DNA from: a virus
IMG/VR virus record: IMGVR_UViG_3300000553_000253
Coordinates: 1-28,726 of that record
DNA: 28,726 nucleotides
Reading direction: 5' to 3' (one strand)
Part shown: piece by piece, positions 4,288 to 24,164 of the stretch
Position numbering within the stretch: position 1 is the stretch's first letter
How the letters are laid out: every line of letters starts with the position of its first letter
Notes under the pieces: model-generated
The model's database searches: none
Told to the model about the DNA's origin: nothing
What the model saw: the letters and a program-made list of their open reading frames with translations, nothing else
Made by a program: the position numbers and the translations under genes

Positions 4288-6288
4288 TTGTCCACAGCAC
4301 CAATGAGCGCCAGGGCGCTCGCCGTATTCCAGCGCACCTACAGCCGCACCCGTGACGATGGTGCGGCTGAGACGTTTGAGCAGGCCATTGACCGCGTCAT
4401 TGGCCACCAGCTCTGGCTGTGGAGCCGTGCCGGCGGTTGGTCTGATACTGACATCGACACCCCGCTTGATGCTCAACGAGAGCTGATGCAACTGCGGGAG
4501 CTGATGCTGGCCCGCAAGGTGCTGCCCAGCGGGCGCACCATGTGGCTGGGCGGCACGGAGATCGCCCGCAGCCGGGAGCTCAGCCAGTTCGCGTGCAGCG
4601 GGCACGTGGTCCGCACTGTCTACGACGTGGTGGACGCTACCTGGCTGCTGCTGAACGGCTGCGGCATTGGCGCCAAGCCAGAGGGCGGCGTGCTGAACGG
4701 CTTCATGCAGCCCATCAGCAAGATCACCGTCATCCGGTCCCAGCGCACCATCGAGGATGGCCCCAGCGGCGAAGACTACAACGTGGAGACGTGGGACCGC
4801 AGCACGCGGCGCTGGACCATCCGCGTGGGCGACAGCGGTGAGGCCTGGGCCAAGGCCATTGGCAAGCTGGTGGCGGGCAAGTACCCAGCCGTGGAGCTGG
4901 TGCTTGACTTCTCAGCCGTGCGCGCCGAGGGTTCCCTGCTCAGCCGCTACGGCTGGCGCAGCAGCGGTGACACCGTCATCAGCCAGGAGATGCCCAAGAT
5001 CGCGGCCATCTTGTCGCGCCGCGCCGGCCAGCTGCTGCGCAAGCTTGACATTGCCGACATCATCAACCACCTGGGCGTTATTCAGACCGGGCGGCGCGGG
5101 GCCGAGATATTGTTGATGGATGAGGGCGACCCCGAGATCGACGACTTCATCCGGTTCAAGGACGGCTGCTATGCAGACCCACAGCGGCACCAGCGGCAGC
5201 AGTCGAATAACTCTATCCTCTTCTGGGAGAAGCCAACCCGCGCCCGGCTGCGGGAAATCTTCGACACCATCCTGGCCAGCGGCGGCAACGAGCCGGGCTT
5301 CATCAACGCAGCCCAGGCCCGGCAGCGGGCGCCGTGGTTCAGCACCGCCAACCCCTGCGTGGAGATACTCCTTGCTGATAAGGGATTCTGCAACCTCATT
5401 GAGGTCGACGTTGCTAAATTCAGCCACCTCGACGACCTGCTGTCCGCTCTGCGGCTTGCCGCCCGAGCGAATTACAGGCAGACCCTCGTCAACCTGGACG
5501 ACGGAATACTCCAACGTACCTGGCACGAAGTCAACGAGTTTCTGCACCTGTGTGGGACCTCTATCACTGGGGTCGCCCGGCGGCCTGATCTTACTGCGCA
5601 CGATCTTAGAGCAATGCGGACAGCCGCCCACGCCGGCGCCTGGGGCATGGCCGAGGAGCTAGGCACCCCGCGCCCCAAGAACGTGACCTGCATCAAGCCC
5701 AGCGGCACCCTGGGCAAGGTCATGGACACCACCGAAGGCGCCCACCGCCCCCTGGGCCGCTACGTGTTCAACAGCATCGTGTACGCCCGCACGGACCCGC
5801 TGGTGGCCGTGCTGCGGCACGCCGGCTACGACGTGCGCCCCCACCCCACGCAGGAGACGCAGGTGCTGATCAAGTTCCCGGTGGAAAGCGAGGGCGTCCT
5901 GTTTCAGGACTTCCACGGCACGCCGGTGAACCTGGAGCCCGCCGTGGAGCAGCTGGAGCGGTACAAGCTGCTGATGTTGAACTGGGCCGACCAGAACGTG
6001 TCGCTCACAGTGTCCTACGACCCGGAGGAGGTGCCGGCCATTATTGATTGGATGCTGGCCAACTGGGACAGCTACGTCGGCGTGTCCTGGGCCTTCCGCA
6101 CGGACCCAACCAAGACGGCGGCTGACTTCGGAGCGGCCTACCTGCCGCAGGCCGTGGTGGACAAGGCCACGTTCGACGCCTACGTGGCCCAGCTGCGGCC
6201 CATCGGTACGCTTGAAGACATGGGCGGCGCCGTGCCGCTTGATGAACTAGAGGATGACTGCGAGGGGGGCGTATGTCCAGTGAGATAG
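4288..6288 (+). CDS. nrdJ: Class II (B12-dependent) ribonucleotide reductase
   Basis: A 666-residue adenosylcobalamin-dependent ribonucleotide reductase that makes deoxyribonucleotides for phage DNA. All five expected cysteines are visible: Cys104 (QFACSG); Cys357 in NPCVEI, the thiyl-radical residue with Asn355 and Glu359; Cys368 in FCNLIEV, eleven residues later as in the Lactobacillus leichmannii monomeric enzyme; and a C-terminal CEGGVC pair (658 and 663) of the kind that exchanges disulfides with thioredoxin. The CxxxxC spacing and length favour the monomeric triphosphate reductase type. TTG at 4288 is taken as start because GGGGGA lies seven bases before it; ATG at 4303 is the alternative. 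The end overlaps the ParB-like gene by 16 bases. Confidence 0.93.
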   Translation: MSTAPMSARALAVFQRTYSRTRDDGAAETFEQAIDRVIGHQLWLWSRAGGWSDTDIDTPLDAQRELMQLRELMLARKVLPSGRTMWLGGTEIARSRELSQFACSGHVVRTVYDVVDATWLLLNGCGIGAKPEGGVLNGFMQPISKITVIRSQRTIEDGPSGEDYNVETWDRSTRRWTIRVGDSGEAWAKAIGKLVAGKYPAVELVLDFSAVRAEGSLLSRYGWRSSGDTVISQEMPKIAAILSRRAGQLLRKLDIADIINHLGVIQTGRRGAEILLMDEGDPEIDDFIRFKDGCYADPQRHQRQQSNNSILFWEKPTRARLREIFDTILASGGNEPGFINAAQARQRAPWFSTANPCVEILLADKGFCNLIEVDVAKFSHLDDLLSALRLAARANYRQTLVNLDDGILQRTWHEVNEFLHLCGTSITGVARRPDLTAHDLRAMRTAAHAGAWGMAEELGTPRPKNVTCIKPSGTLGKVMDTTEGAHRPLGRYVFNSIVYARTDPLVAVLRHAGYDVRPHPTQETQVLIKFPVESEGVLFQDFHGTPVNLEPAVEQLERYKLLMLNWADQNVSLTVSYDPEEVPAIIDWMLANWDSYVGVSWAFRTDPTKTAADFGAAYLPQAVVDKATFDAYVAQLRPIGTLEDMGGAVPLDELEDDCEGGVCPVR

Positions 6289-7124
6289 CCTACCAGCTGG
6301 GCTACCATCCAATCAAGGGTCTCAAGGGCGCGCCACGGGGCAACCTGCCAGGCCCGGCGCCGCGCCCCGTGCAGCTGGCCATGGCCCAGCTTGTGATAAA
6401 TGAGGACTACCAGCGCGGCGTCAGCGACAAGGGCATCAAGCTGATCCTTGGCATGGCCGCCGCCTGGGACTGGGGGGCCTACAAGGCGCCCACGGTCTGC
6501 CCCACCGATGAACCCGATATATACGAGGTCGTTGATGGCCAGCACACCGCCATCGCGGCTGCGACCAACGGCAACATCCCGTTCCTGCCCTGCCTGATCC
6601 ACGACCTGGCCACCCTGGCCGACAAGGCGCGCGGGTTCATTGGCATCAACACCCGCCGCATCCAGCTGACGGCGCTGGACATCTACTCCGCCCAGGTGGC
6701 GGCGCAGGACCCCGCCGCCATTGACCTGGAGTGCGCCCTGGTGGCCACCGGCTGCCGGCTGCTGGCCCACCCCCGCAGCGAGTACAGGCCGGGGGACACG
6801 GTTGCGATCAAGACGTTGCTGGCCCTGGCCGGGCGTGGGGGTCAGGCCCGCGTAGAACGGGTGCTGCGCATCTGCCTGGCGGTGGGGTCCATGCCCATCG
6901 CCAGCAGCCTCATCAAGGCGCTGGACGTGGTGCTGCCCCACGCGGCGGATGCTGATGTGGACCGCAAGGTGGTGGACTACCTGATCTTACGCGGGGTGTT
7001 TGAGGAAGAGAGCCACGCCCGCGTGGCGACGCCCAAGGGTGGGCGCAGTTATGAAACCTTTGCCGACCGCATCAGCAGCGGGATCGGCCTGCGCCAGCGT
7101 CTTGGATTGGAGAAAAAGAAATGA
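6273..7124 (+). CDS. ParB/sulfiredoxin-like fold protein
   Basis: A 283-residue protein with a ParB N-terminal-like domain in its first half: QLVINEDYQRGVSDKGI near residues 39-55, then YEVVDGQHTAIAAA near 84-97, where the DGQHR-type signature appears as DGQHT. Phage proteins of this group (DUF6551-like) are common near replication genes; some ParB-like domains bind or cut nucleotides or DNA. The second half is helical with no motif I can name. The start overlaps the reductase stop and has a GAGGGGGG ribosome-binding site. The end overlaps the next gene as ATGA. A role in partitioning is not implied, because there is no ParA partner in view. Confidence 0.75.
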   Translation: MSSEIAYQLGYHPIKGLKGAPRGNLPGPAPRPVQLAMAQLVINEDYQRGVSDKGIKLILGMAAAWDWGAYKAPTVCPTDEPDIYEVVDGQHTAIAAATNGNIPFLPCLIHDLATLADKARGFIGINTRRIQLTALDIYSAQVAAQDPAAIDLECALVATGCRLLAHPRSEYRPGDTVAIKTLLALAGRGGQARVERVLRICLAVGSMPIASSLIKALDVVLPHAADADVDRKVVDYLILRGVFEEESHARVATPKGGRSYETFADRISSGIGLRQRLGLEKKK

Positions 7125-7327
7125 GCCGGTTCAAGGATGAGGCTGACGACTACGCTGGCACCCACCGTGCTGAGAGCGACGCGGCCTGGCGCGTCTCGGG
7201 CCTGGCCACCGGCGACGTCTGGCTGCCCAAGAGCCAGTGCGATATGGACCCACCGAACGCCCGCATCGGCGACCGCGCCACGTTCACCATCCCAAATTGG
7301 CTCGCCGAAGAAAAGGAACTAGTGTAA
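7121..7327 (+). CDS. Small hypothetical protein
   Basis: A 68-residue hydrophilic protein starting at an ATGA overlap with the ParB-like gene. It ends in a TAATG overlap with the exonuclease gene. Position and overlaps on both sides argue that it is translated. Composition is acidic, with a central GDVWLPKSQ segment. No domain, membrane segment or metal-binding motif is seen. Function unknown. Confidence 0.6.
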   Translation: MSRFKDEADDYAGTHRAESDAAWRVSGLATGDVWLPKSQCDMDPPNARIGDRATFTIPNWLAEEKELV

Positions 7328-7875
7328 TGAAGAACCTCATGATCGACGCCGAGACCCTGGCCACCACCGGCCTACCCATCTTCATCCAGCTGGGGGCCTG
7401 CGTGTTCGACGACGAAACGGGCGAGATCGGCGCGGACTTTGAGATGTGCATCAGCATTGATAGCTGCGTGGGCCTGGGGGCCATCATAGACGATGGTGCC
7501 TTTGATTTTTGGATGAAGCAGCCACCCGAGGCCCAGCGCGCCGTGCGGAACAAGCCGCAGCACATGACCGCCGCCCTGGGCCACCTGAACATGTTCTACG
7601 AGACCAGGGGCGTTGAGCGCGTCTGGTCCCAGGGCTTGGGCTTTGACATTGCCCACCTGGAACGGTACTACGACCGCATCAGCTTGCCGGTTCCGTGGCG
7701 CTACAGCGCGCCGCGCGACACCCGCACCCTGTACGAGGTGGCCCAGCGGTACGCCAACTGGGAGCGCCCCACCCGCATCGTGGCCCACACTGCCCTGGCC
7801 GACGCCCGCGCCCAGGCGCAGGACTGTCTGGGCGCCATGATGGCGTTGCGCGCCCTTTCCCCATTCACGAAATAG
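7327..7875 (+). CDS. 3'-5' exonuclease, DnaQ/RNase H-like fold (Rv2179c/DexA-like)
   Basis: A 182-residue protein of the DEDD exonuclease superfamily. Exo I is MIDAETLATTG with Asp7 and Glu9. Exo II falls in WSQGLGFDIAHLERYY, where the Asp follows the Gly-Phe pair. Exo III is HTALADARAQAQ with the His and Asp of a DEDDh-type site. The order and length match the Rv2179c-like family, which also includes T4 DexA-type exonucleases. It would remove nucleotides from 3' ends of DNA or RNA. ATG at 7327 overlaps the upstream TAA and has AAAGGAA before it; the longer frame to 7237 only reads through the preceding gene. An 18-base tandem repeat begins inside the last codons. Confidence 0.82.
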   Translation: MKNLMIDAETLATTGLPIFIQLGACVFDDETGEIGADFEMCISIDSCVGLGAIIDDGAFDFWMKQPPEAQRAVRNKPQHMTAALGHLNMFYETRGVERVWSQGLGFDIAHLERYYDRISLPVPWRYSAPRDTRTLYEVAQRYANWERPTRIVAHTALADARAQAQDCLGAMMALRALSPFTK

Positions 7876-7896
7876 GCTCCGTTAACGAAATAGTCC
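7861..7896 (+). repeat. Two imperfect 18-bp tandem repeats
   Basis: Units 7861-7878 and 7879-7896 share the core TTMACGAAATAG (TTCACGAAATAG, then TTAACGAAATAG). The first unit includes the stop codon of the exonuclease gene and the second lies in the intergenic gap. It could be an operator or simply a short duplication. Confidence 0.6.
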
Positions 7897-7913
7897 TTGC
7901 GGACGGGGACGAT

Positions 7914-7949
7914 GGGGCGTAGGTCTACTCTCAGAAGCACAGGAGCTAC
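7914..7949 (+). repeat. 36-bp leader repeat, copy 1
   Basis: This 36-base stretch recurs exactly at 24910-24945. It starts GGGGCGTAGGTCTACTCTC and ends in the AGAAGCACAGGA element plus GCTAC. In both places a start codon follows within about five bases. Such identity over 17 kb in non-coding DNA points to a functional leader or a recent duplication. Confidence 0.85.
7933..7944 (+). promoter_or_regulatory. AGAAGCACAGGA start-site element, copy 2
   Basis: Exact copy, followed by G to give AGGAG, eight bases before the ATG at 7953. It sits inside the 36-bp leader repeat. Confidence 0.75.
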
Positions 7950-7952
7950 CCC

Positions 7953-8633
7953 ATGTCCCCCGACACCAAGGTCTACACCGTAAAGTCCAACGCGGTGCGC
8001 GCCGCCCGCGCCGCTCTGACGGCGCAGGGCATCAGCGCCCCGCTCTCCATGGTCCACTTCGCCATCGACGACGCGGAGGGCGGCTTCACGTGGCGCCGCC
8101 TGGCCGCCGGCAAGCCCCAGACCATCTCTGAGCGTGTGGCCGCCAAGGAAGCAGCCCCCGCCAAGGCCCCAGCGCCGACGCCCACGCCCCAGCAGGCCGC
8201 CCTGGCTGCTGCCCTGGCCGAGGCCCCCGCCGTGGGCCAGGCGCGCACCGCCGCCCGCCGGGCGGAGCGTGCGGCCAAGAAGGTGACCAAGACGGACCAC
8301 AAGCCGGCCGAGAAGAAGCCGGCGAAGGTGGCCTACCGCCCCAAGGTCGGTACGAAGCAAGGCGAGATGTACGAACTGCTGACCGCCAAGATCACCAGCG
8401 ATCCCGCCAGCGACTTGGGCGCCAGCTGGGCCGACCTGCGCACCCTGCGCCTGGCCCAGTCCCCGGACCGGGACGTGGAGTGGACGCCCGCCGCCCTGTG
8501 GGGCAGCGTGTGCCGGCTGTTCCACCACCGCCGGGGCTACGGCTGCAAGACGGACGGCCAGCGCGTGTGGCTCATCATCCCGGCTGACGAGCGCGCCGCG
8601 CCGCCGAAGGGCGGCAAGGGTGGTGAGGAATAG
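7953..8633 (+). CDS. Hypothetical protein with Ala/Pro/Lys-rich linker and basic C-terminal domain
   Basis: A 226-residue protein in three parts. Residues 1-60 look folded (VYTVKSNAVRAARAAL, FAIDDAEGGFTWRRL). Residues 65-130 form a low-complexity linker rich in Ala, Pro and Lys (APAKAPAPTPTPQQAALA). Residues 130-226 form a second domain starting GTKQGEMYELL, with a tail resembling a small winged-helix fold (LWGSVCRLFHHRRGYGCKTD). The GTKQ opening recalls the DUF3489-type HTH domain, but the match is weak. It may bind DNA through the C-terminal part. The 36-bp leader repeat lies directly upstream. Function unknown. Confidence 0.7.
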   Translation: MSPDTKVYTVKSNAVRAARAALTAQGISAPLSMVHFAIDDAEGGFTWRRLAAGKPQTISERVAAKEAAPAKAPAPTPTPQQAALAAALAEAPAVGQARTAARRAERAAKKVTKTDHKPAEKKPAKVAYRPKVGTKQGEMYELLTAKITSDPASDLGASWADLRTLRLAQSPDRDVEWTPAALWGSVCRLFHHRRGYGCKTDGQRVWLIIPADERAAPPKGGKGGEE

Positions 8634-8636
8634 CCA

Positions 8637-8664
8637 TTGCGTTCCTCAGCGTCTGTTGTATTCT
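8637..8664 (+). promoter_or_regulatory. Possible sigma70-type promoter
   Basis: TTGCGT at 8637-8642 and TATTCT at 8659-8664 are separated by 16 bases in the 56-base gap before the gene at 8690. Each box has four of six consensus bases. This is a weak prediction based on sequence only. Confidence 0.3.
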
Positions 8665-8689
8665 ATGATCAGCAGCAAGGAGCTACTCC

Positions 8690-8944
8690 ATGGCCCACAA
8701 CCCCGCCCAGCACAGCCGCCAGCCCAAGGCCGCCCAGCAAGCCACCATGGACAAGCTGTTTGCCGGCGACGACCCGGCGGGCGCCTACCAGAACCCCCGC
8801 CGCCAGAAGGTGTTGTCCACCGGCTGGGCCTGGGAAGGCAAGGCCATAACCTGCCACCGCGTGGTGGACCGCAGCGCCGCCGGCCTGCACCCCGTGCAGC
8901 AGCTGTTCCGCATAGCGCCCGACGGCGCCGCCACCCCCATCTAA
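8690..8944 (+). CDS. Small hypothetical phage protein
   Basis: An 84-residue hydrophilic protein starting at an ATG eight bases after AAGGAG; the preceding AGCAGCAAGGAGCTAC is a diverged form of the start-site element seen elsewhere in the window. The N-terminal 25 residues are rich in Gln, Ala and His. The remainder contains FAGDDPAGAYQNPRRQK and TGWAWEGKAITCHRVVDRS. No recognised domain or membrane segment. GC-rich third codon positions and clear upstream signals support coding. Confidence 0.65.
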   Translation: MAHNPAQHSRQPKAAQQATMDKLFAGDDPAGAYQNPRRQKVLSTGWAWEGKAITCHRVVDRSAAGLHPVQQLFRIAPDGAATPI

Positions 8945-8945
8945 C

Positions 8946-8957
8946 AGAAGCACAGGA
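8946..8957 (+). promoter_or_regulatory. AGAAGCACAGGA start-site element, copy 3
   Basis: Exact copy beginning two bases after the stop codon of the preceding gene, nine bases before the GTG at 8967. Confidence 0.75.
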
Positions 8958-8966
8958 GCTACCACC

Positions 8967-9440
8967 GTGACAAAGACCCGCCGCCCCGCCGGCAGCCGCG
9001 CCACCCCGTTCACCAACTCGGCCGAGGACTGCCTGGTCGGCGGCACCGAGGACATTGGTTCCCTCAAGGAAGAGATGGAGGAGTGGGCCAGCAACATGGA
9101 ATCCAACTCCATGGAACACCTCCCCAAGTATGATGAGGTCAATGAGACCAAGGACGCCCTGGAGAACGCCCACAGCGGCCTGGAGCAGTTGACCGTGCCC
9201 GACGCCCTGGCTAAGGTCATGGTGACCTACACCATGGACACCCGCCGCAAGGCCCAGTCCCGCGCGGCGCGCCTGGATAATGCCTGCGCCCCGCTGGATG
9301 GGGTGCTGGACGCGGCCCGCGCGTGGCTGGAAGGCAACGAGCATGGGTCTGATGGCTACGACGAGGTCGACCAGTTCGCCGACGACCTGGAGAACGCCCT
9401 CGACGAGGCGCGCAACGTCAGCTTCCCCGGCATGTACTAG
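8967..9440 (+). CDS. Acidic helical phage protein, unknown function
   Basis: A 157-residue acidic protein. Much of it is predicted helical from its heptad-like pattern, for example SLKEEMEEWASNM, EVNETKDALENA and DQFADDLENALDEA, which could form coiled coils. It opens with a short basic arm (TKTRRPAGSR). No catalytic motif is visible. GTG at 8967 is supported by the upstream AGAAGCACAGGAG element. Similar acidic helical proteins of unknown function occur in many phage early regions; a DNA-mimic or adaptor role would be speculation. Confidence 0.7.
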   Translation: MTKTRRPAGSRATPFTNSAEDCLVGGTEDIGSLKEEMEEWASNMESNSMEHLPKYDEVNETKDALENAHSGLEQLTVPDALAKVMVTYTMDTRRKAQSRAARLDNACAPLDGVLDAARAWLEGNEHGSDGYDEVDQFADDLENALDEARNVSFPGMY

Positions 9441-9444
9441 GGCC

Positions 9445-9612
9445 ATGAAGAAAGCTGAGTTTCATTGGGTCCGTATCAAGGACCTGGGCAAGGGGTGGTA
9501 TGTGTGGTTGCTGTGTGAGCGATCATACTGCCCCCATCCGCCACCGCCCGGCTACCAGATGATGCCAGGCAGCTACCCTGACGGCAACTTCCCTGTCTAT
9601 GGAGGCTACTGA
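9445..9612 (+). CDS. Small hypothetical protein, 55 residues
   Basis: Starts at ATG 9445, four bases after the upstream stop, and ends in a TGATG overlap with the next gene. It is rich in aromatic residues and Pro/Gly/Tyr toward the C terminus (GYQMMPGSYPDGNFP). The ribosome-binding site is weak (only GGG), so expression may depend on coupling to the gene upstream. It contains two Cys near residue 30 but no recognisable zinc motif. Function unknown. Confidence 0.5.
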   Translation: MKKAEFHWVRIKDLGKGWYVWLLCERSYCPHPPPPGYQMMPGSYPDGNFPVYGGY

Positions 9613-9776
9613 TGCCCTACCTTGCCATCGTAATGGTCTGCCTTCTGTTCGTGGTGATTGCCACGTTCAAGGTCCTGTACCTGTTCTTCCGCATCGCCAT
9701 CGGTCTAATCTGCCTGGCCGGCCAAGGCCTCTACGCGCTGTATTTGGCCTTTGTGCCGCAGGGGGAGCCGAAGTGA
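9612..9776 (+). CDS. Small membrane protein, 54 residues
   Basis: This short gene starts at ATG 9612 in TGATG overlap with the previous stop and ends in GTGA overlap with the DUF4031 gene, so both ends fit the reading chain. The product is very hydrophobic: MPYLAIVMVCLLFVVIATF forms one probable transmembrane segment (about residues 3-20), and a second hydrophobic stretch runs from about residue 23 to 48, separated by Lys and Arg. It could be an inner-membrane protein of one or two spans. No lysis motif or partner gene is visible, so a holin role is not supported. Confidence 0.6.
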   Translation: MPYLAIVMVCLLFVVIATFKVLYLFFRIAIGLICLAGQGLYALYLAFVPQGEPK

Positions 9777-10150
9777 CCCTGTACGTCGACGACGTAAGCC
9801 ACCGCTTCGGGCGCATGATCATGTGTCACATGTGGGCCACCACCGTGAATGAGCTCCACGACCACGCCGCGTTCCTGGGCCTGCGCCGGGTGTGGTTTCA
9901 GCAGCCGCCCAAGGCCAGTTGGGAGCATTACGACGTGTCCCTGACTGTGAAGCGCCGCGCCCTGGTGGAGCGGAACGCGGCCCTGACGGACAAGTACGAG
10001 CCACTGGCCCACACCAGCCGCTTGCTGATAGCCTCCGGCGACCCTGTTAAGGTGACGCGCGGCGAAAAGACCCTGGCCCGGATAGCGCAGTGCCGGACCA
10101 TGTTCAAGCTGCCTGTGGACGGCATCCTGGGCCAGGGGGTGCTGCTGTGA
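9773..10150 (+). CDS. DUF4031 family protein
   Basis: A 125-residue protein with the DUF4031 pattern: VTLYVDDVSHRFGRMIMCH at the start, TVNELHDHAAFLGL, then FQQPPKASWEHYDVSL followed by KRRALVE. In this family the N-terminal YVDD, the central H and the PPKAS-HYD segment are conserved. The biochemical role is unknown; the family is common in phages and actinobacteria. GTG at 9773 overlaps the upstream stop, and this start gives the family's usual N terminus; the open frame extending to 9599 is the preceding gene read in another phase. The C-terminal 50 residues extend beyond the core. It overlaps the next gene by GTGA. Confidence 0.8.
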   Translation: MTLYVDDVSHRFGRMIMCHMWATTVNELHDHAAFLGLRRVWFQQPPKASWEHYDVSLTVKRRALVERNAALTDKYEPLAHTSRLLIASGDPVKVTRGEKTLARIAQCRTMFKLPVDGILGQGVLL

Positions 10151-10860
10151 CCCTACCCGTCCTAGTAGACCTGTTCTGTGGCGAGGGCGGCGCGTCGGAG
10201 GGCTACGCCCAGGCGGGGTTTGACGTTGTCGGCTGGGACCTGCGCCGCTGGCCGGGCTACCGGCACGACCTGCTGATTACCGACGTGACGTGGTACGGGG
10301 CCAGCCAGTTCGCCGCCTACTGCCGGCGGGTGGGGGCCGTGGCCGTCCACGCGTCGCCGCCCTGCCAGAAGCTGACAGAGCTGAATAGTAAGCGCGAGAA
10401 CCACCTCAACTTGATACCCCACACCCGCCTGCTGTGCGAGGGGACCGACTTACCCTACGTGATTGAGAACGTGCGCGCGGCGCGGGACCACCTGCACGAC
10501 CCTGTCTCATTGACTGGCTGCATGTTCGACCTTCACTGCACCACGTCCAAGGGCCAGCGCTTTGACCTATCCAGGGAGCGTTTGTTTGAAACCAACTGGC
10601 CGTTGGAGGAGCCGCTGCCGCCAGGCTGCAAACATCCCATTGCCAATGTGTTCGGCGGCCACATCCGTGCCCGCAGCGGCGAGTACCGCACCGGCAAGGG
10701 CACGGGTAAGACTGTGGACTTCCCAGGTGAGGACCGGCCTGCCCTGGCCCGCCAGCTCATGGGCATGCCGTGGGCAACGATGGGTGGAATGAGTGAAGCG
10801 GTGCCCCCGGCTTATACAAAATGGATAGGGATGCGGCTTATGGAGCATCTGGGGCTGTGA
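10147..10860 (+). CDS. C5-cytosine DNA methyltransferase-like protein 1
   Basis: A 237-residue protein with the order of motifs of C5-cytosine methyltransferases, which transfer a methyl group from SAM to cytosine in DNA. Motif I is LVDLFCGEGGASEGYAQAG. Motif IV is ASPPCQKL with catalytic Cys73. Motif VI is YVIENVRAA with Glu107. Motif VIII is SRERLFETNW. The C-terminal AVPPAYTKWIGMRL corresponds to motifs IX-X. The region for target recognition is short, so the protein is near minimal size. The start is GTG 10147, overlapping the previous stop. It lies just upstream of the HTH and hypermodification genes, which suggests a shared role in DNA base modification and resistance to host restriction. 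Sequence specificity cannot be read. Confidence 0.85.
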   Translation: MTLPVLVDLFCGEGGASEGYAQAGFDVVGWDLRRWPGYRHDLLITDVTWYGASQFAAYCRRVGAVAVHASPPCQKLTELNSKRENHLNLIPHTRLLCEGTDLPYVIENVRAARDHLHDPVSLTGCMFDLHCTTSKGQRFDLSRERLFETNWPLEEPLPPGCKHPIANVFGGHIRARSGEYRTGKGTGKTVDFPGEDRPALARQLMGMPWATMGGMSEAVPPAYTKWIGMRLMEHLGL

Positions 10861-11069
10861 GTCGTTGGTTCATCAACTACCGCCAGCAGTGGATCGCCCA
10901 GCACCTGGCCACGCAAAAGCGCATCAATCGACAAAACCTTATGTTGATGTTTGACATATCCATGCCGCAGGCCTCGCAAGACATTCAGCTCTACATCCAA
11001 AACCACCCCGGCGCGGTTGTCTATGATTATTCAGCCAAGACCTACCGCGCCGCCACGCATCAACCCTGA
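10857..11069 (+). CDS. Small winged-helix/HTH regulator-like protein
   Basis: A 70-residue protein starting at GTG 10857, overlapping the methyltransferase stop. The central part reads KRINRQNLMLMFDISMPQA, followed by SQDIQLYIQ and then VYDYSAKTYRA. This matches the DeoR/WYL-type N-terminal winged helix, where a helix-turn-helix around ISMPQAS is followed by a wing with the YD-AK-Y pattern. It would bind DNA and may regulate the operon it sits in. No effector domain is present. The call rests on sequence pattern, not on structure. Confidence 0.65.
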   Translation: MSRWFINYRQQWIAQHLATQKRINRQNLMLMFDISMPQASQDIQLYIQNHPGAVVYDYSAKTYRAATHQP

Positions 11070-11120
11070 CCACCAACCCCTGGCGCGCCACGCCGCAGCG
11101 CGGCAGGGTGCAGCCTGTTC

Positions 11121-11132
11121 AGAAGCATAGGA
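11121..11132 (+). promoter_or_regulatory. AGAAGCATAGGA start-site element, copy 4 (one mismatch)
   Basis: Variant of the 12-base element with T for C at position 8, followed by G to give AGGAG, seven bases before ATG 11140. A small hairpin, GCCGC-AGC-GCGGC at 11092-11104, precedes it. Confidence 0.65.
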
Positions 11133-11139
11133 GCGCCCC

Positions 11140-11865
11140 ATGGGCACCGTCTACTCTATCCGTGGCACCAACGGCAGTGGCAAGACCACGCTGGCCAGGC
11201 GCTTTCTCCCGCCCAACCTGAAGGGTCAGTACGCCAAGGGCGAAGGCGGTGACACCGGCGGCCCGGTCGATCTCTGTTTCTACCCCAGCCCCACTAAGAC
11301 CGACCCCGACCGCGAAAAGCGCGTGGAGGGCTACATCCGTCTGACCAAGGCGCTGGGCACGGTCGGCGCCGTGGGCAGCTACGACGCCAGCTGCGGGGGC
11401 ATGGATAAAATCCCCAGCTTTGAAATCCAGCGCAACGCCATCAGCTACATGCTGGCCGCAGACCGCATCAACTGCGACCACGTGATCGCCGAGGGCCTGC
11501 TGGCCTCCGGGGTCTACGGCAGCTGGGCCGACTACGCCCGCCTGCTGGCCGGCCAGGGGCACCGCTACCTGTTCATCTACCTGCACACGCCCCTGGATGT
11601 GTGTGTGGAGCGTGTGCGCGCCCGGCAGGCCAGCGTCGGTAAGGCCGGCAAGGACTTCAACGTCCTGCAGGTTGAGACCATGATGGGCCGCGCCATGCGG
11701 GGCCGGGCCGCCGCCATGCGTGATGGTATGCACGTCTACGACCTGCCGCCCAGCAACGACACCAACGTCCTGGCCGCCATGCTGACAGACATCATGCTGG
11801 ACAACCAGGCCGGCCAGGCGCTACGGGCCAAGGGCGCCGGCCCGCTGGGGCTGGTGGAACCGTGA
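11140..11865 (+). CDS. P-loop kinase, probable 5-hmdU DNA kinase subunit
   Basis: A 241-residue P-loop NTPase. Walker A is RGTNGSGKTT at residues 8-17. The hydrophobic strand VIAEGLL near residue 120 is the likely Walker B equivalent, and RYLFIYLHTPLDVCVERVRAR near 147-167 looks like the lid region of nucleotide kinases. On its own it could be any small-molecule or DNA-base kinase. The next gene, overlapping by GTGA, encodes the helical domain that accompanies 5-hydroxymethyl-dU DNA kinases, and the gene after that is a TS-family enzyme. This context points to phosphorylation of 5-hydroxymethyluracil in phage DNA. The substrate is inferred from context. Confidence 0.75.
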   Translation: MGTVYSIRGTNGSGKTTLARRFLPPNLKGQYAKGEGGDTGGPVDLCFYPSPTKTDPDREKRVEGYIRLTKALGTVGAVGSYDASCGGMDKIPSFEIQRNAISYMLAADRINCDHVIAEGLLASGVYGSWADYARLLAGQGHRYLFIYLHTPLDVCVERVRARQASVGKAGKDFNVLQVETMMGRAMRGRAAAMRDGMHVYDLPPSNDTNVLAAMLTDIMLDNQAGQALRAKGAGPLGLVEP

Positions 11866-12863
11866 TCGTCCAGGACAGGCTCCAGCTGCTGGCCGACTGG
11901 ATCAACGAACGCCAGGCCATATATCTGCGCAAGTCAGCGCTGGAACGCCAGCCTGGCGGCAACGGGCCTGAGTTTCAAAATGAACTGGACGTGGCGGCTT
12001 GGCGTGACCCTACCCGTCCAGACGCCCAGGGCGCCTACTACAACTGGAGCGCGGGGGCGCTGACACACGATCCCGTGCTGCGGCAGTACCGCTTCTGCAA
12101 CGTCTACCGTGAGCAGGACAGCGTCACCAAGTGGATCAACGACAACATCCGCGTCCCCTACGCCGACAATGAGAACCTGTGGTTCATGCTTTGCGTGGCT
12201 CGGTGGATCAATTGGCCGGCCACGTTGGCGGAGCTGATAGCCACGACCGGCGCGTGGCCCACGGATGACCGCCTGTTCACACCGGAGTACATGCTGTCCG
12301 CACTGAATAGCCGTGCTGGCCGGGGCGAGAAACTATTCACCGGCGCCTACATGATCACCAACGGCGGCACCAGCCAGCCAAAGCAGCAGTACGTCGTGCG
12401 GAATGTGCTGGAGGTGCTGTGGAACAACCGCCACGACTGGCAGCACCTGAACGGGCCAGGTGATGATACCATGGAGGGTGTCCACTCCTACTTCACCAGC
12501 GGGGCCTTCCCCGGCATGGGTAGTTTCATGGCCGGCCAGGTCACGACGGACATGCGTCACACCCGTTACCTCAAGGACGCCCCAGACGCTGCCACGTGGG
12601 CGGCCATGGGGCCAGGCAGCCGCCGGGGCCTTAACCGGCTGCATGGCCGCCCCACCGACGCCCCGCTGCGCCAGGCGTCGGGCGTGCTGGAGCTGCTGGG
12701 CGTGCGGGATGCCCTAGCCGACCAGGGCCTGCTGGCGGACTGGGCGCCGCTGCCAGAGCTAACAGACCTGCAGAACTGCCTCTGTGAATACGATAAATAC
12801 ATGCGGGTGCGCCTCGGCGAGGGCCGGCCGCGAGCGCTCTACGTTCCAGGAAGGGGACACTGA
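11862..12863 (+). CDS. 5-hmdU DNA kinase helical-domain (aGPT-Pplase2-type) protein
   Basis: A 333-residue protein that carries the signatures of the domain first described as alpha-glutamyl/putrescinyl-thymine pyrophosphorylase and later as the 5-hmdU DNA kinase helical domain. Visible are YRFCNVYREQDSVTKWI (residues 76-92), WFMLCVARWINWPATLAEL, a GEKLFTGAYMITNG segment, GMGSFMAGQVTTDMRHTRYL near residue 220 and MGPGSRRGLNRL near 248. These proteins act on hydroxymethyluracil in DNA of hypermodified phages such as Salmonella ViI and Pseudomonas M6. The start is GTG 11862 overlapping the kinase stop; the stop overlaps the TS-family gene as TGATG. The kinase and helical parts are separate proteins here. 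Confidence 0.8.
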   Translation: MIVQDRLQLLADWINERQAIYLRKSALERQPGGNGPEFQNELDVAAWRDPTRPDAQGAYYNWSAGALTHDPVLRQYRFCNVYREQDSVTKWINDNIRVPYADNENLWFMLCVARWINWPATLAELIATTGAWPTDDRLFTPEYMLSALNSRAGRGEKLFTGAYMITNGGTSQPKQQYVVRNVLEVLWNNRHDWQHLNGPGDDTMEGVHSYFTSGAFPGMGSFMAGQVTTDMRHTRYLKDAPDAATWAAMGPGSRRGLNRLHGRPTDAPLRQASGVLELLGVRDALADQGLLADWAPLPELTDLQNCLCEYDKYMRVRLGEGRPRALYVPGRGH

Positions 12864-13996
12864 TGCACGTCGTCAACTGCCGCAACGTCAACGATGGCCT
12901 CCCCGCCGCCCTCGACCTCCTTCGCGTCCACGGCGTCCGCGAGGAGAGCCGCAACGGGCCGGTCCTGCGCATGCCGTGCCCGGTCTCGACGGTGTTCGCC
13001 CGGCCGATGGAGCGGGTGCTGTTCGCCCCCTGGCGCGACGCCAACCCGTTCTTCCATTGCTGCGAAGCGATTTGGATGCTCGCCGGCCGCGACGACCTCA
13101 AGCAGCTCACCCCCTACGTCAAGCGCATGGCCGAGTACAGCGACGACGGCGGGGTGACGCAGCCGGCGGCGTACGGGAAACGGTGGCGTAATTGGGAAGT
13201 CAGGGAAGGCGGCACCGCATACAATTGGGGCGATCAACTAGACTGGGCAGTGGAGCGGCTTCGCAAGGATACTGGTGATCGTCGAGTAGTCATTCAGATG
13301 TGGGACCCGCCCACGGACAAGTGGGCTGCCCAGAGTGGCGGCAAGGACGTCCCCTGCAATCTCACCATGTTGCCCTGGATCAGCGGCGGCGCGCTGCACC
13401 TCACGGTTTTCAACCGCAGCCACGACATCATCTGGGGCCTGTTCGGGGCCAACGTCGTCCACTTCAGCGTGGCGCAGGAGTACCTCGCCGGCCGGCTCGG
13501 GCTCGGTGTCGGGACGCTGACGTTTATCAGCAACAATTTCCACGCCTACGAGGCGACGATGCCGGACATCGCCGCTGACTACAATGCGACGCGAAACCCC
13601 TACAGCGGGCTTGCCTTTCCTTTCTCGGACCAACCCGCCATCAAGCCTGACGTCCAGCCCTACTCCATGTGGACGGACTGGGCGCAGCTAAAGACCACGG
13701 ACACCGACCGCGAGCGCATCCTCCAGGAGGACCTGCGCGTCTTCTTCGAGCATGGCGCCGTCGAGGCCGCCACCAAGGCGCGCTGGCCCTGGCTGCGCCG
13801 CGTCGCCGTGCCTCTCGCCCTGGCCCACCAGCACTGGAAGGGCGGCCGGGGCGAGGCTCGCTACACCGGCGCGCTGGAGATACTGGAGCGCTGCGCTGCG
13901 CCCGACTGGCGGCTGGCGGCCGAGCAGTGGGTCCGGCGGCGGTACGATCGCTGGAAGGTGAAGGCGGATGACGGGATGATCCATGACCAAGGTTGA
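12863..13996 (+). CDS. Thymidylate synthase-family enzyme, probable dUMP hydroxymethylase
   Basis: A 377-residue member of the thymidylate synthase fold family. NPFFHCCEAIWMLAGR matches the N-terminal helix, and YGKRWRNW the folate-side segment. The catalytic Cys165 lies in DVPCNL, the phosphate-binding Arg185-Ser in NRSHD, and Asn197 in the GLFGANVVHFS segment corresponds to the Asn that selects uracil in dUMP enzymes (dCMP hydroxymethylases have Asp). The usual PCH is PCN. In context, the likely reaction is dUMP to 5-hydroxymethyl-dUMP; plain dTMP synthesis remains possible. Codon choice differs from neighbours: in about the first 87 codons, six of nine Leu codons are CTC, whereas nearby genes mostly use CTG. 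This suggests a separate origin. The C-terminal 100 residues extend beyond the usual core. Confidence 0.82.
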   Translation: MHVVNCRNVNDGLPAALDLLRVHGVREESRNGPVLRMPCPVSTVFARPMERVLFAPWRDANPFFHCCEAIWMLAGRDDLKQLTPYVKRMAEYSDDGGVTQPAAYGKRWRNWEVREGGTAYNWGDQLDWAVERLRKDTGDRRVVIQMWDPPTDKWAAQSGGKDVPCNLTMLPWISGGALHLTVFNRSHDIIWGLFGANVVHFSVAQEYLAGRLGLGVGTLTFISNNFHAYEATMPDIAADYNATRNPYSGLAFPFSDQPAIKPDVQPYSMWTDWAQLKTTDTDRERILQEDLRVFFEHGAVEAATKARWPWLRRVAVPLALAHQHWKGGRGEARYTGALEILERCAAPDWRLAAEQWVRRRYDRWKVKADDGMIHDQG

Positions 13997-14452: not shown

Positions 14453-14814
14453 TGGCGCGCTGGCGTACCTACCACCGTCGCCGCGCGCGGCGCGAGGCAT
14501 GGCAGTGGGAGAACTGGCGCAGGTTCAACGCCGCCTACGAGGCCATCATGGACTTTGGTGTGGCGATAACCGAGAGGCTCGACGATCTGTTAAAGTCTCA
14601 CGATCCCATATTTTACGACGAGGCCGGCTGGGAGAAGATACGCAAGGCTTACCTGGATAAACTCGCTGAACTTTTTCCGTTTGATGATCCGTTGCCGAGA
14701 ACTGAATTCATATTCAACTACGATAAAGCCGCCCGCAGCGTTGCGATAGCAGCGCAGGTGCCCTTGCAACTGTTCTACCCATACGGCCCCGCGCCAGAGG
14801 AACCTGAAGAATGA
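14452..14814 (+). CDS. Hypothetical protein with basic N terminus
   Basis: A 120-residue protein. The first 20 residues are strongly basic and aromatic (MARWRTYHRRRARREAWQW), possibly a nucleic-acid-binding arm. The rest looks helical and more acidic, ending in a Pro/Glu tail. ATG 14452 overlaps the preceding stop; GTG 14449, immediately before it in frame, is an alternative. Base composition falls from about 14570 onward compared with the genes before it. The end overlaps the HD-domain gene as ATGA. Function unknown. Confidence 0.6.
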   Translation: MARWRTYHRRRARREAWQWENWRRFNAAYEAIMDFGVAITERLDDLLKSHDPIFYDEAGWEKIRKAYLDKLAELFPFDDPLPRTEFIFNYDKAARSVAIAAQVPLQLFYPYGPAPEEPEE

Positions 14815-15371
14815 CCTCCCTCCTAAACAAGGTTCGCTTCGCCCGGGAGGGGTCGGCCGTGGAGCGCGCCCACGCGCACCCGCACCTCATGCGCTACAGC
14901 GTCGGCCACCACAGCCTGGACCTCATCACGCTGGTGACGTTGGCCTGGAAGGCCGACCACGGCGACGAACTGCCCAGCGCCCAGCTGCTGGTGGCCTGCG
15001 CCTTCCACGACGTGGCCGAGCGTGCCACGGGCGACCTGCCCAGCCCCGTGAAGACGCTCTGTCCCCGCGTGGCGGAGGTAGACGAGATGGTGCTGGCGTC
15101 CCTGGGCGTTGAGACAACCCTTAGCACCGAGCAGGACGCCTACCTGCACTGGGGGGACAAGCTTGAGCTCTACCTGTGGTGCCTGGAGGAACGGGGACGC
15201 GGCAACCAAGGATTTCAAGGCTGGATCGAGTACTACCAGCAAGCCTTTCACTGGGCGCCAGCCGAACACCTGCCCCCCGCCTACCGGCAGATATTCCAGG
15301 GGGCCACGGGTATGCGTAGCACGCGGCTCTCATACAGCGAAGTTGAAGAAATAGCGGGGATCAAGGGGTAG
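14811..15371 (+). CDS. HD-domain phosphohydrolase, YfbR-like 5'-nucleotidase candidate
   Basis: A 186-residue HD-superfamily protein. The metal-binding residues fit the pattern H...HD...D: His33/34 in VGHHSLDLI, His66-Asp67 in CAFHDVAERATGDLPSP, and a later Asp in HWGDKLELYLW. The spacing and length resemble the E. coli YfbR-type deoxyribonucleoside 5'-monophosphatase. Such an enzyme would hydrolyse dNMPs and can shape the nucleotide pool, for example by depleting a canonical nucleotide that competes with a modified one; that role is inferred from the neighbouring modification genes. The start overlaps the upstream stop (ATGA). The AT-richer 3' end abuts a GIY-YIG endonuclease gene. Confidence 0.8.
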   Translation: MTSLLNKVRFAREGSAVERAHAHPHLMRYSVGHHSLDLITLVTLAWKADHGDELPSAQLLVACAFHDVAERATGDLPSPVKTLCPRVAEVDEMVLASLGVETTLSTEQDAYLHWGDKLELYLWCLEERGRGNQGFQGWIEYYQQAFHWAPAEHLPPAYRQIFQGATGMRSTRLSYSEVEEIAGIKG

Positions 15372-15373
15372 CC

Positions 15374-15898
15374 ATGGTCGCTGGTGTCTACAGGCTTTGG
15401 TTTTCTAAGACTGATTCTTATATTGGATCGAGCCAAGATGTTACCCGCAGGGTCCTTAAGCACGCACGCCAATGCTTCAATAGGACCCATAAAAATCCAA
15501 AAATACAACAAGCTTATGATAGTAATGGTGGCCTGTGGCCGCAGATTGTGTTGATTTGTGATAATAATAGGGTTCTATTCTACGAACAGAAGTGCCTAGA
15601 CCTCTATCGGCCTATCTGCAATCGTTCTGCTAGGGCTTCGGGGGTTGTCTTTACTCCTTTGATCGTAGCCAAGGTAGCCGCTGGCTGGACGCCTGAACGA
15701 CGTGCAGCCCGCAAGGCGTACATGATTGGAAACAAACAGTGCGTAGGTCGGAAAGACACGCCCGAGACTTGTGAAAAACGATCCAAAGCCATGTCGGGAA
15801 GGAAGCCTTCGGAAGCTGCCAGGGTAGGGGCGCGTGATAGAATGCTTCGATTGCACGCAGAGAGGTACAAGGGGTTTAAAAATTATGCCAAAGATTGA
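15374..15898 (+). CDS. GIY-YIG homing endonuclease
   Basis: A 174-residue GIY-YIG nuclease. The signature appears as AGVYRLWFSKTDSYIGSSQD, with Arg25 and a following LKHAR helix; Glu72 in FYEQKCLDLYRPICN is the likely metal ligand, and the Asn follows in CNRS. The C-terminal part has NUMOD-like basic segments (GRKDTPETCEKRSKAMSGRK). It is notably AT-rich against its flanks. It lies two bases after the HD-gene stop, and its 3' end overlaps the start of the DUF3310 gene by 14 bases. Free-standing homing endonuclease; target unknown. Confidence 0.88.
   Translation: MVAGVYRLWFSKTDSYIGSSQDVTRRVLKHARQCFNRTHKNPKIQQAYDSNGGLWPQIVLICDNNRVLFYEQKCLDLYRPICNRSARASGVVFTPLIVAKVAAGWTPERRAARKAYMIGNKQCVGRKDTPETCEKRSKAMSGRKPSEAARVGARDRMLRLHAERYKGFKNYAKD
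15835..15843 (+). promoter_or_regulatory. Possible extended -10 promoter
   Basis: TGATAGAAT matches the extended -10 form TGnTATAAT with one mismatch. It lies near the 3' end of the endonuclease gene, about 40 bases before the DUF3310 start. No convincing -35 box is seen. The same nine bases occur at 23648-23656. Confidence 0.3.
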
Positions 15899-16645: not shown

Positions 16646-17055
16646 CAACTATAGACAAAGCCCAGCCCGAAAAAATAGCGCTCTTCTTTGGTCGCTGGGA
16701 GTCCCCTGGGCATTATCTTTATTCAAGTAACGGACGCGTCATCTGGGACCCAAAGAGAGATATACCAGGCTTCCCTTGGTCTAATAGTTTGCTTGATGGT
16801 GGTTTATTGAAAAATGGAAACCATAAGGATGCGCCAACTGGAGATGTATTTTGGACAGTCGGTGGTACACCGCTCTGGTATGCTTTCTTCTGGTGGGATC
16901 GTTCAGGTGATAGACGCGGAGCTTCCTGTTCCGGTTTTTATGTCTCAGGGTTCCCGTGGCCGGCAGCGGAAGCAGCGTTCTTACATGCCTGCTCGGTTTT
17001 CCCTAAGATAACAAACAGACAACATCACGTCCTAGTACTCCAGGACCCGAAATGA
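16642..17055 (+). CDS. AT-richer hypothetical phage protein
   Basis: A 137-residue protein rich in Trp, Phe, Gly and Pro, for example ALFFGRWESPGHYLYSSNGR, a VFWTVGGTPLWYAFFWW segment and GFYVSGFPWPAAEAAF. It looks globular and soluble, with no transmembrane pattern. No motif is recognised. Codon use is clearly AT-richer than in the genes on both sides, although both ends keep the ATGA overlap style, so it is either an older replacement or a locally acquired gene. It sits directly upstream of the polymerase gene. Function unknown. Confidence 0.7.
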   Translation: MTTIDKAQPEKIALFFGRWESPGHYLYSSNGRVIWDPKRDIPGFPWSNSLLDGGLLKNGNHKDAPTGDVFWTVGGTPLWYAFFWWDRSGDRRGASCSGFYVSGFPWPAAEAAFLHACSVFPKITNRQHHVLVLQDPK

Positions 17056-19046
17056 CACTCCAGGGCACGTTGTTCCCACCCGAGGCTGATTGGCGCCCGC
17101 CCAACCTGGCTGACCTGCCCCAGGACTGGTCGGCCTTCAAGCGTGTGGGGCTGGACACTGAGACCTGCGACCCGACCCTGCGCAAGCTGGGGCCTGGCGT
17201 GCGGCGCGGCGGCTACGTGGTGGGCTACAGCGTCAGCTTCCCCGGCCTGGGCAGCTGGTATGTCCCCATGCGCCACGGCGGTGGGGATAACGTAGCCGAT
17301 CCTGGCCGCGCTCTGGCCTACCTACGCGATAACCTGCGCCACTGGACCGGCGAGGTGGTGGGGGCCAAGCTGAGCTATGACGTTGACTTCCTGGCCGAGG
17401 TTGACGTCACCATGGACAATGCCACCCTGCGGGACGTGCAGGTGGCGGAGCCTCTCCTTGATGAGCTCCAGTACTCCTACAGCCTGGACAATATCCTCAA
17501 ACGACACGGCCTGGCCGGCAAGGATGAGAGTCTGCTCAAGCAAGCCGCAGCCGCCCACAAGGGCGGGGATAGCAAGCCCCTGGACCCTAAGCGTGACATG
17601 CACATGCTGCCGGCGCGCTACGTCGGCCCCTACGCCGAGGCCGACGCCGACCGGCCCCTGCTGTTGCTGGAGCGCCAGGAGAAGCTGATAGAGGAACAGG
17701 AGCTCCGCCGGGTGTGGGACATGGAGTCCGCCCTGTTGCCGGTCCTGGTCCGGATGCGGCGCCGGGGCGTGGCCGTGGACTTTGACCAGCTGGACAGAGT
17801 GGAGCGCCACAGCCGCGCCGAAGAGATGAAGGCGTGGGGCGAGGTGCAGCGCATCACAGGCGTAGCCGTGCGGGTGGGCGACGCCATGAAAGCCGAGGTC
17901 GTGGCCCAACCCCTGCGGGCCGCCGGCCTGATGCCTGGCAGCACGGCCACCGGCAAGCCTAAGATCGATAAGGCGTGGCTGGAGTCCCTGGACCACCCGG
18001 TGGCCACAGCGATACGCCGCGCCCGCAAGATGAGCCAGCTGCGGACCACATTCGTACAGTCCGTTCGTGACCATTCCGTGATGCCAGCCGGCGGCAACAT
18101 CGCGCGCATCCACTGCACCTTCAATCAGACCGTTATGGATAGCGATGAGGAAGGTGACGGCACTGAGGGCGCCGCCTTTGGGCGGCTCAGCTGCCAGGAC
18201 CCCAACCTGCAGAACCAACCGGCCCGCGACCCCGAACTCGGCCCCATGTGGCGCAAGGTCTATATACCGGACCCAGGCGAAGAATGGGCCAGCCTGGACT
18301 ACAGCCAGCAGGAGCCGGGCTTGGCGCTCCACTTCGCCATAGCCAGCGGCCAGGAGCGCATCGGGGCCAAGGCGCACGCATCGGCCCTGGCCGCCGCGCA
18401 CCGCAAGCGCACAGACCCGAGCATGGATTACCACACCATGTTCACGGCCATGGTCCACGGCGACCACGTGCTGGCCTGGGACAAGAAATCAAAGGAGCTC
18501 AAGCTCCTACGCGACCCATGTAAGAATATCTACCTCGGCATCTGCTACGGCATGGGCGGCGCCAAGCTGTGCCGCCAGATCGGCCTGCCCATCGTCCTCG
18601 TGCAGGATGAGCGCACTGGCCGCTGGCGCGAGGCCGCCGGCAAGGAGGGCCAGGCCCTGCTGAACTTGGTGGATAGTCGCGTTCCGTACATCCGCGCCAC
18701 GGCCAAGGCAGTGGAGCGCATCGCCAAGGGCCGTGGCTACGTGAAGACGCTGCTGGGCCGGCGCTGTCACTTCGCCACCGACATGCACGGGAACCTTGAG
18801 GACACCCACAAGGCGTTCAACCGCATCATCCAGGGGTCAGCGGCCGACCAAACGAAGCAAGCCATGATTGAACTGGACCGCGCCGGGGCGCGCCTCCAGC
18901 TTCAAGTCCACGACGAAGTGGACCTTGGTGTGGCTGACAGGGATGAGGGCCTGGCCTGGGCGAAGATCATGTCTGAAACATTGCCGCTGCTGGTGCCTGT
19001 CAACGTAGATGTGGAGCTCGGCCCCAGCTGGGGCGAGATCAAGTAG
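17052..19046 (+). CDS. polA: Family A DNA polymerase with 3'-5' exonuclease
   Basis: A 664-residue replicative polymerase. The N-terminal third is a 3'-5' proofreading domain: VGLDTETCD (Asp35, Glu37), GAKLSYDVDFL, and YAEADADRP as the third exonuclease motif. There is no 5'-3' exonuclease domain, as usual in phages. Motif A is LDYSQQEPGLAL with Asp416; the canonical QIELR is altered to QQEPG. Motif B has Lys491 in CKNIYLGICYG, and the position equivalent to E. coli Phe762 is Leu495. Motif C is VHDEVDLG with Asp621 and Glu622. All catalytic acids are present, so the enzyme should be active. The start is an ATGA overlap with the preceding gene. The Leu at position 762 has been linked in viral surveys to temperate or slower-replicating phages. 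Confidence 0.93.
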   Translation: MTLQGTLFPPEADWRPPNLADLPQDWSAFKRVGLDTETCDPTLRKLGPGVRRGGYVVGYSVSFPGLGSWYVPMRHGGGDNVADPGRALAYLRDNLRHWTGEVVGAKLSYDVDFLAEVDVTMDNATLRDVQVAEPLLDELQYSYSLDNILKRHGLAGKDESLLKQAAAAHKGGDSKPLDPKRDMHMLPARYVGPYAEADADRPLLLLERQEKLIEEQELRRVWDMESALLPVLVRMRRRGVAVDFDQLDRVERHSRAEEMKAWGEVQRITGVAVRVGDAMKAEVVAQPLRAAGLMPGSTATGKPKIDKAWLESLDHPVATAIRRARKMSQLRTTFVQSVRDHSVMPAGGNIARIHCTFNQTVMDSDEEGDGTEGAAFGRLSCQDPNLQNQPARDPELGPMWRKVYIPDPGEEWASLDYSQQEPGLALHFAIASGQERIGAKAHASALAAAHRKRTDPSMDYHTMFTAMVHGDHVLAWDKKSKELKLLRDPCKNIYLGICYGMGGAKLCRQIGLPIVLVQDERTGRWREAAGKEGQALLNLVDSRVPYIRATAKAVERIAKGRGYVKTLLGRRCHFATDMHGNLEDTHKAFNRIIQGSAADQTKQAMIELDRAGARLQLQVHDEVDLGVADRDEGLAWAKIMSETLPLLVPVNVDVELGPSWGEIK

Positions 19047-19136
19047 GACGTACACGCACCGTCAACCGGACCCGCCGCCACTGGCGCTGGGGCGCCGGGC
19101 GGCTGTAGGCTTAAGCTTAGTCGGGTGGAGGGAAGA

Positions 19137-24110: not shown

Positions 24111-24145
24111 AGGCCCCCAGGTTAGCGCCTGGGGGCCTTGATTTT
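24111..24145 (+). terminator. Intrinsic terminator
   Basis: AGGCCCCCAGG at 24111-24121 pairs perfectly with CCTGGGGGCCT at 24128-24138 around a six-base loop, followed by TGATTTT. It separates the upstream unit from the methyltransferase gene, whose start element begins one base after the T tract. Confidence 0.85.
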
Positions 24146-24157
24146 AGAAGCACAGGA
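24146..24157 (+). promoter_or_regulatory. AGAAGCACAGGA start-site element, copy 6
   Basis: Exact copy directly after the terminator T tract, seven bases before GTG 24165. Because a terminator precedes it, transcripts reaching it either read through or start within a few bases of it. Confidence 0.75.
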
Positions 24158-24164
24158 ATACATC

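Follow-up and report, generated by a model that had tools for sequence, protein, structure and literature searches.

The IMG/VR virus record IMGVR_UViG_3300000553_000253, whose 28,726 bases we analyzed in full and refer to here as the window, carries a three-gene operon that very likely makes and activates a modified thymine. Judging from the sequence, 5-hydroxymethyl-deoxyuridine (5-hmdU) would be synthesized, incorporated into DNA, and phosphorylated, and neither the transferase ADDT nor any later enzyme is recognizable in the window. The hydroxymethylase and kinase steps are an already known kind of pathway. What is new is the absence of ADDT from its conserved place, together with the occurrence of the same reduced set of genes in separate, longer contigs, a finding subject to whatever the missing half of the genome contains, as the record is classed as linear and is therefore probably a genome fragment. 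The operon comprises the following genes:

11140 to 11865, plus strand: P-loop subunit of a predicted 5-hmdU DNA kinase (PF18748, E 1.4e-7).
11862 to 12863, plus strand: predicted helical subunit of the 5-hmdU DNA kinase, aGPT-Pplase1 or HMUDK_hel (PF18723, E 2.4e-38).
12863 to 13996, plus strand: pyrimidine hydroxymethylase of the thymidylate synthase (TS) family, predicted to act on dUMP (phrog_5131, E 2.7e-101; PF00303, E 5e-18).

An initial annotation of this DNA had described the three reading frames as overlapping genes of a thymine-hypermodification cassette, and we located both couplings, GTGA at 11862 to 11865 and TGATG at 12861 to 12865, as well as every motif it had named. The first product contains the Walker A sequence RGTNGSGKTT (GTNGSGKTT at nucleotide 11164), and its proposed identity as a P-loop kinase is borne out by a match to PF18748 of 31.7 bits, against a Pfam cut-off of 27, and by 179 bits with a richer P-loop profile; a single-query scan with this protein found no relatives in IMG/VR. 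The second product carries YRFCNVYREQD (nucleotide 12087) and MGPGSRRGL (GPG at nucleotide 12609), and it matches the family suggested for it, PF18723, with 132.5 bits (cut-off 25) and a richer helical profile with 384 bits; a missing PF18723 match had been named in advance as grounds for refuting the cassette. Its signature had, however, been named aGPT-Pplase2, which is wrong: the protein belongs to the aGPT-Pplase1 clade, now HMUDK_hel, whereas aGPT-Pplase2 is PF18724, the ADDT family itself. The third product, for which PF00303 had likewise been correctly anticipated, scores 430 bits with a richer profile and contains the Cys of KDVPC (motif at nucleotide 13343) and the Asn of FGAN (motif at nucleotide 13442). 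Annotations often call the cassette's P-loop kinase "terminase small subunit" (NC_007809 gp54, Ab18, Ab19, YuA, other records, and PHROG 800), which is probably a misannotation. A separate search for a terminase with PF03354 was uninformative, as M6 itself gave no match.

The enzymes look intact and functional because their conserved columns are kept. Compared with aligned families (helical, 102 sequences; P-loop, 79; hydroxymethylase, 93; HD nucleotidase, 66), the window proteins retain 29 of 29, 13 of 13, 41 of 43, and 12 of 12, respectively, of the columns with a conservation of 95% or more. The KDVPC, DRR, NRSHD, FGAN, and NNFHAY segments of the hydroxymethylase align to both TS and CMP hydroxymethylase, with the catalytic Cys kept and a TS/uracil-type Asn at the position of the CMP hydroxymethylase's Asp. 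Where TS has the Trp of its IRIWNEW motif, the family profile shows a gap, and this residue is also missing in CMP hydroxymethylase. In TS, this active-site Trp (W80 in Escherichia coli) shields the methylene intermediate. Membership in the TS superfamily, and the annotation of most relatives' copies as thymidylate synthase, might suggest ordinary thymidylate synthase activity and no modified base. We consider this very improbable and reject it on profile, structure match, and gene context: the enzyme groups with that of phage M6 (phrog_5131), the best solved structure for the family profile is CMP hydroxymethylase (5b6d), above every thymidylate synthase, and its gene is coupled to a pair of kinase genes that belong specifically to hmdU pathways.

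The helical subunit matched no solved structure by sequence. Its confident AlphaFold2 model (predicted local distance difference test score 90, predicted template modeling score 0.89) was matched in Foldseek first to the 637-residue SP10 5-hmdU DNA kinase and to the kinase helical proteins of PhiW-14 and RSL1, after these to ADDT proteins, and further down, with weak support, to an endonuclease III-like protein and OGG1. A profile comparison between the helical and ADDT families likewise gave a weak link (probability 68, E 5e-5). From these models, it may reasonably be inferred that the kinase partner and the ADDT transferase share a DNA-glycosylase-like fold for handling bases. That the P-loop and helical parts form one enzyme fits with the SP10 entry, because this long protein, named a 5-hmdU DNA kinase, contains the helical fold.

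The step that would follow the kinase is where the window departs from its relatives, in an interval immediately upstream of the operon:

6289 to 11139, no strand assigned: interval where relatives have ADDT with pyridoxal phosphate (PLP) and radical S-adenosylmethionine (SAM) genes or flavin adenine dinucleotide (FAD) genes, occupied here by unrelated genes (profile, tblastn, and profile-profile searches negative).

We did not find ADDT in the window with PF18724, two richer profiles, tblastn, or hhalign, and profile, tblastn, and profile-profile searches of the window for PLP, radical SAM, FAD lyase, acetyltransferase (GNAT), and Nmad5 genes were equally negative. The richer profiles for all six families stayed at noise level; the best ADDT score was ≈1 bit, compared with 242 to 347 bits for held-out true ADDTs after relatives of at least 45% identity had been removed from the profiles, a control that was not applied to the radical SAM and GNAT profiles. 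Six-frame profile searches run at the highest sensitivity, tblastn queries from all relatives, and profile-profile comparison gave only noise, and a hidden or frameshifted copy of any of these genes in the window was therefore rejected; searches of the whole record with PF18724, the ADDT and FAD alignments, and the radical SAM and PLP models agree. The initial annotation is thus correct that radical SAM, PLP, and acetyltransferase genes are lacking from the window. Its modified-thymine pathway is well supported as far as making and phosphorylating 5-hmdU, through homology and the gene order of M6 and PaMx11, whereas "hypermodification" goes too far for the window, which encodes nothing past the kinase step and is missing ADDT besides the tailoring enzymes.

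In related loci, the position of ADDT is highly constrained. A P-loop gene lies within 6 kilobases (kb) upstream of the helical gene at 74 loci, 57 of which have ADDT, always upstream (1.2–5.1 kb) and never downstream. Among loci that span the module from ribonucleotide reductase to polymerase, 21 of 22 contain ADDT, just upstream of the kinase, and the sole exception is the window; these 21 loci are not independent events because some are near-duplicates (M6 appears twice). ADDT placement in three loci added later (L110, L118, and L120) agrees. The corresponding 4.85-kb gap of the window instead contains genes for a ParB-like protein, an Rv2179c-like exonuclease, a DUF4031 protein, and a C5-methyltransferase-like protein, along with short unknown genes. 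Most of these have no counterpart at related loci, and the segment therefore looks exchanged rather than merely deleted. The C5-methyltransferase-like gene (10090–10860) was rejected as a hypermodification enzyme, its relatives being ordinary phage methyltransferases.

It is conceivable, but in our view unlikely, that an enzyme unrelated to ADDT uses the phosphorylated base, the candidates being the ParB-like protein (6273–7124), the DUF4031 protein (9599–10150), or an unknown reading frame of the interval. These genes do occupy the place of ADDT, and in phage Tonitrus a ParB-like gene adjoins thymine-modification genes (PMC11955845). A DUF4031 homologue lies between the helical and hydroxymethylase genes of locus L073 (10971–11384), and DUF4031 genes occur in 6 of 58 surveyed records, five of which are without ADDT, a small sample not corrected for kinship. 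However, no catalytic link is known for any of these proteins, the ParB-like gene has no homologue at related loci and occurs in unrelated phages, and the DUF4031 association amounts to six records.

The same reduced gene set appears elsewhere. At least three longer contigs, L062 (63 kb), L092 (50 kb), and L013 (39 kb), contain P-loop, helical, and hydroxymethylase genes, and their entire records gave no match to ADDT, FAD enzyme, radical SAM, PLP, or GT1 models, an absence that is provisional because these records come with no completeness figure. They represent other lineages than the window, and SNF2-type helicases lie nearby in L013 and L092. These contigs bear on the idea that ADDT was lost recently, leaving the kinase as a relic and 5-hmdU alone in the DNA, as in SPO1. 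Close relatives do have ADDT, and in SPO1, hmdU alone confers some resistance to restriction (PMC6449724). Nevertheless, we regard such a relic as improbable, as both kinase genes are full length and translationally coupled, with all strongly conserved residues in place, and the retention of the kinase pair without ADDT in three longer contigs argues for retained function.

Still other loci have altered cassettes. L094 (104 kb) carries a similar set plus a glycosyltransferase homologue (found with phmmer) and a PIG-L-like gene, and L080, L083, and L084 combine helical and hydroxymethylase genes with glycosyltransferase-like genes and no detectable P-loop gene. The relevant regions are L080 7734 to 9447, L083 1263 to 2898, L094 5045 to 7989 (each of these three including a PIG-L-like gene), and L084 8653 to 9909, all in contigs without ADDT, and their content suggests sugar-modified hmdU in these phages. 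Divergent helical-domain proteins, 21 to 27% identical over long matches and with a few short matches, also occur in L128 to L148, which are genome contigs from Patescibacteria, Alphaproteobacteria, and other sources, many from candidate-phylum bacteria; hydroxymethylase or kinase genes could be detected in hardly any of these cases.

Several points weigh against our reading of the operon. The Pfam match of the P-loop protein is modest (31.7 bits), and the helical protein is also found where no P-loop partner can be detected, such as next to glycosyltransferases, so its role may exceed that of a kinase subunit. The greatest doubt comes from the half of the genome that is unsequenced: the window is a 28.7-kb fragment, relatives' genomes measure 55 to 64 kb, and a displaced ADDT is therefore possible; in PhiW-14, ADDT lies ≈22 kb from the helical gene. 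A complete pathway, with ADDT and tailoring genes in the unsequenced half and a final base derived from an amino acid, such as 5-aminomethyl-deoxyuridine (5-NmdU) or 5-aminoethyl-deoxyuridine (5-NedU), is a serious possibility, though not one we favor. The linear record and the closest relatives, L110 and L031, which have FAD and ADDT genes or PLP, radical SAM, and ADDT genes, speak for it. Against it stand the invariable upstream position of ADDT at the 57 loci and its presence in that interval in all 21 other spanned modules, and M6 and PaMx11 have a single ADDT, in that interval; the missing half should be structural.

Around the operon lie genes that may shape the nucleotide pool and use the modified nucleotide. 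Their order is that of an M6-like siphophage, with helicase, ribonucleotide reductase, kinase pair, hydroxymethylase, HD nucleotidase, DUF3310, family A polymerase, deaminase, and primase:

4288 to 6288, plus strand: class II (adenosylcobalamin-dependent) ribonucleotide reductase, upstream boundary of the module (TIGR02505 above cut-off; 71% identical to that of L110).
14811 to 15371, plus strand: YfbR-like HD 5'-deoxynucleotidase, likely removing dTMP/dNMP (PF12917, E 1e-10).
17052 to 19046, plus strand: DNA polymerase of family A, which bounds the module downstream and presumably uses 5-hmdUTP as a substrate (PF00476, E 1.3e-42; 62% identical to those of L109 and L110).
19125 to 19595, plus strand: dCTP deaminase, a probable source of dUTP/dUMP (TIGR02274 above cut-off).
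23109 to 23672, plus strand: MazG-like NTP pyrophosphohydrolase, a possible nucleotide-pool enzyme (PF01503, E 3.2e-5; ≈47% identical to phage homologues).

The HD nucleotidase (150 bits with a richer profile) corresponds in position and family to M6 gp59 and PaMx11_52. A 2-aminoadenine (Z) genome was considered and rejected, as the polymerase scores 275 bits against a DpoZ cut-off of 500 and no PurZ is present, with no adenylosuccinate synthetase match among the 40 window proteins scanned. Four homing-endonuclease-like genes, one HNH/NUMOD3 and three GIY-YIG, lie between replication genes (294–896, 3512–4270, 15374–15898, and 20196–20741). The window also has two C5-methyltransferase-like genes with PPCQ motifs (10090–10860 and 24138–24872); in the second, EQP replaces ENV, and its G+C content is 0.546, compared with 0.636 for the window.

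Homology, the catalytic residues that the proteins keep, and the gene order shared with relatives suggest a sequence of steps, with the chemistry taken from secondary papers and general background. Starting from dUMP, the TS-family enzyme would form 5-hydroxymethyl-dUMP. The nucleotide pool would be biased by the phage's nucleotidase, dCTP deaminase, and ribonucleotide reductase, and the phage polymerase would insert 5-hmdU for some or all thymine. The P-loop and helical proteins would then act jointly as a postreplicative 5-hmdU DNA kinase, placing phosphate or pyrophosphate onto selected bases. In relatives, ADDT then swaps the phosphate or pyrophosphate for an amino acid that later enzymes trim. 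Postreplicative modification with a preference for TG and TC has been shown (PMC6449724), as has the ATP-dependent phosphorylation of hmU in DNA by a 5-HMU DNA kinase, which also makes E. coli RNA polymerase transcribe less (PMC6457204). As no recognizable ADDT or later enzyme accompanies the kinase here, the phosphorylated base may be the end product, or an unrecognized or unsequenced enzyme may use it. In the PhiW-14 mutant am37, whose putrescinylthymine synthesis is defective, hydroxymethyl-O-pyrophosphoryluracil builds up in the DNA (PMC5977210), which shows, by analogy, what would be expected if no step follows phosphorylation.

Some wild phages, with this phage, L062, L092, and L013 as examples, might thus stop at the kinase and have phosphoryl- or pyrophosphoryl-oxymethyl-deoxyuridine as the mature modification, an idea we hold to be doubtful. 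This base would replace thymine with a negatively charged group, and the pathway papers cited here describe it solely as an intermediate; when thymine is hypermodified in the known pathways of this type, an amine takes the place of the phosphorylated group on 5-hmdU. For phages with a hydroxymethylase and kinase but no transferase, the end point would be either a charged phosphobase or the product of an unknown coupling enzyme, and either would be new DNA chemistry. The pattern observed, a kinase kept and a transferase replaced, separates two steps that comparable relatives show together.

The modification genes resemble those of phages that disguise their DNA, and the window is a 28.7-kb fragment of an M6/PaMx11-like phage. 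DNA-level comparison with phage records found none close (the best match was 72% over 4% of the query), and the nearest contigs are L110 (IMG/VR 3300037313_000077) and L109 (3300037418_000327), with identities of 71% for ribonucleotide reductase, 62% for polA, 58% for hydroxymethylase, 49% for the helical protein, and 45% for the P-loop kinase (the first and last with L110); unlike the window, L110 has genes for an FAD enzyme and ADDT on the upstream side of its kinase gene. The gene order also matches that of Pam3 and Rhizobium phages, whose P-loop homologues are ≈40% identical. In Rhodoferax phage P26218 (L028 5165–7636), ADDT, P-loop kinase, and hydroxymethylase genes adjoin, with no helical gene in the 12.4 kb examined. 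The Abidjanvirus phages PaMx11 and Ab18 share adjoining P-loop, helical, and hydroxymethylase genes with no gene between them, but unlike the window they have ADDT, FAD enzyme, and acetyltransferase genes just upstream. PhiW-14, a large Delftia myovirus with putrescinylthymine, has in common with the window the helical kinase protein and a 5-hmdU pathway with a pyrophosphorylated intermediate. M6, whose DNA contains 5-NedU (PMC6449724), differs in having ADDT (gp51), PLP (gp52), radical SAM (gp53), and Nmad5 (gp56) genes between ribonucleotide reductase and hydroxymethylase, yet shares the order of helicase, ribonucleotide reductase, P-loop kinase, helical protein, hydroxymethylase, HD nucleotidase, DNA polymerase, and primase, and its helical protein (gp55) and hydroxymethylase are 44% and 41% identical to those of the window.

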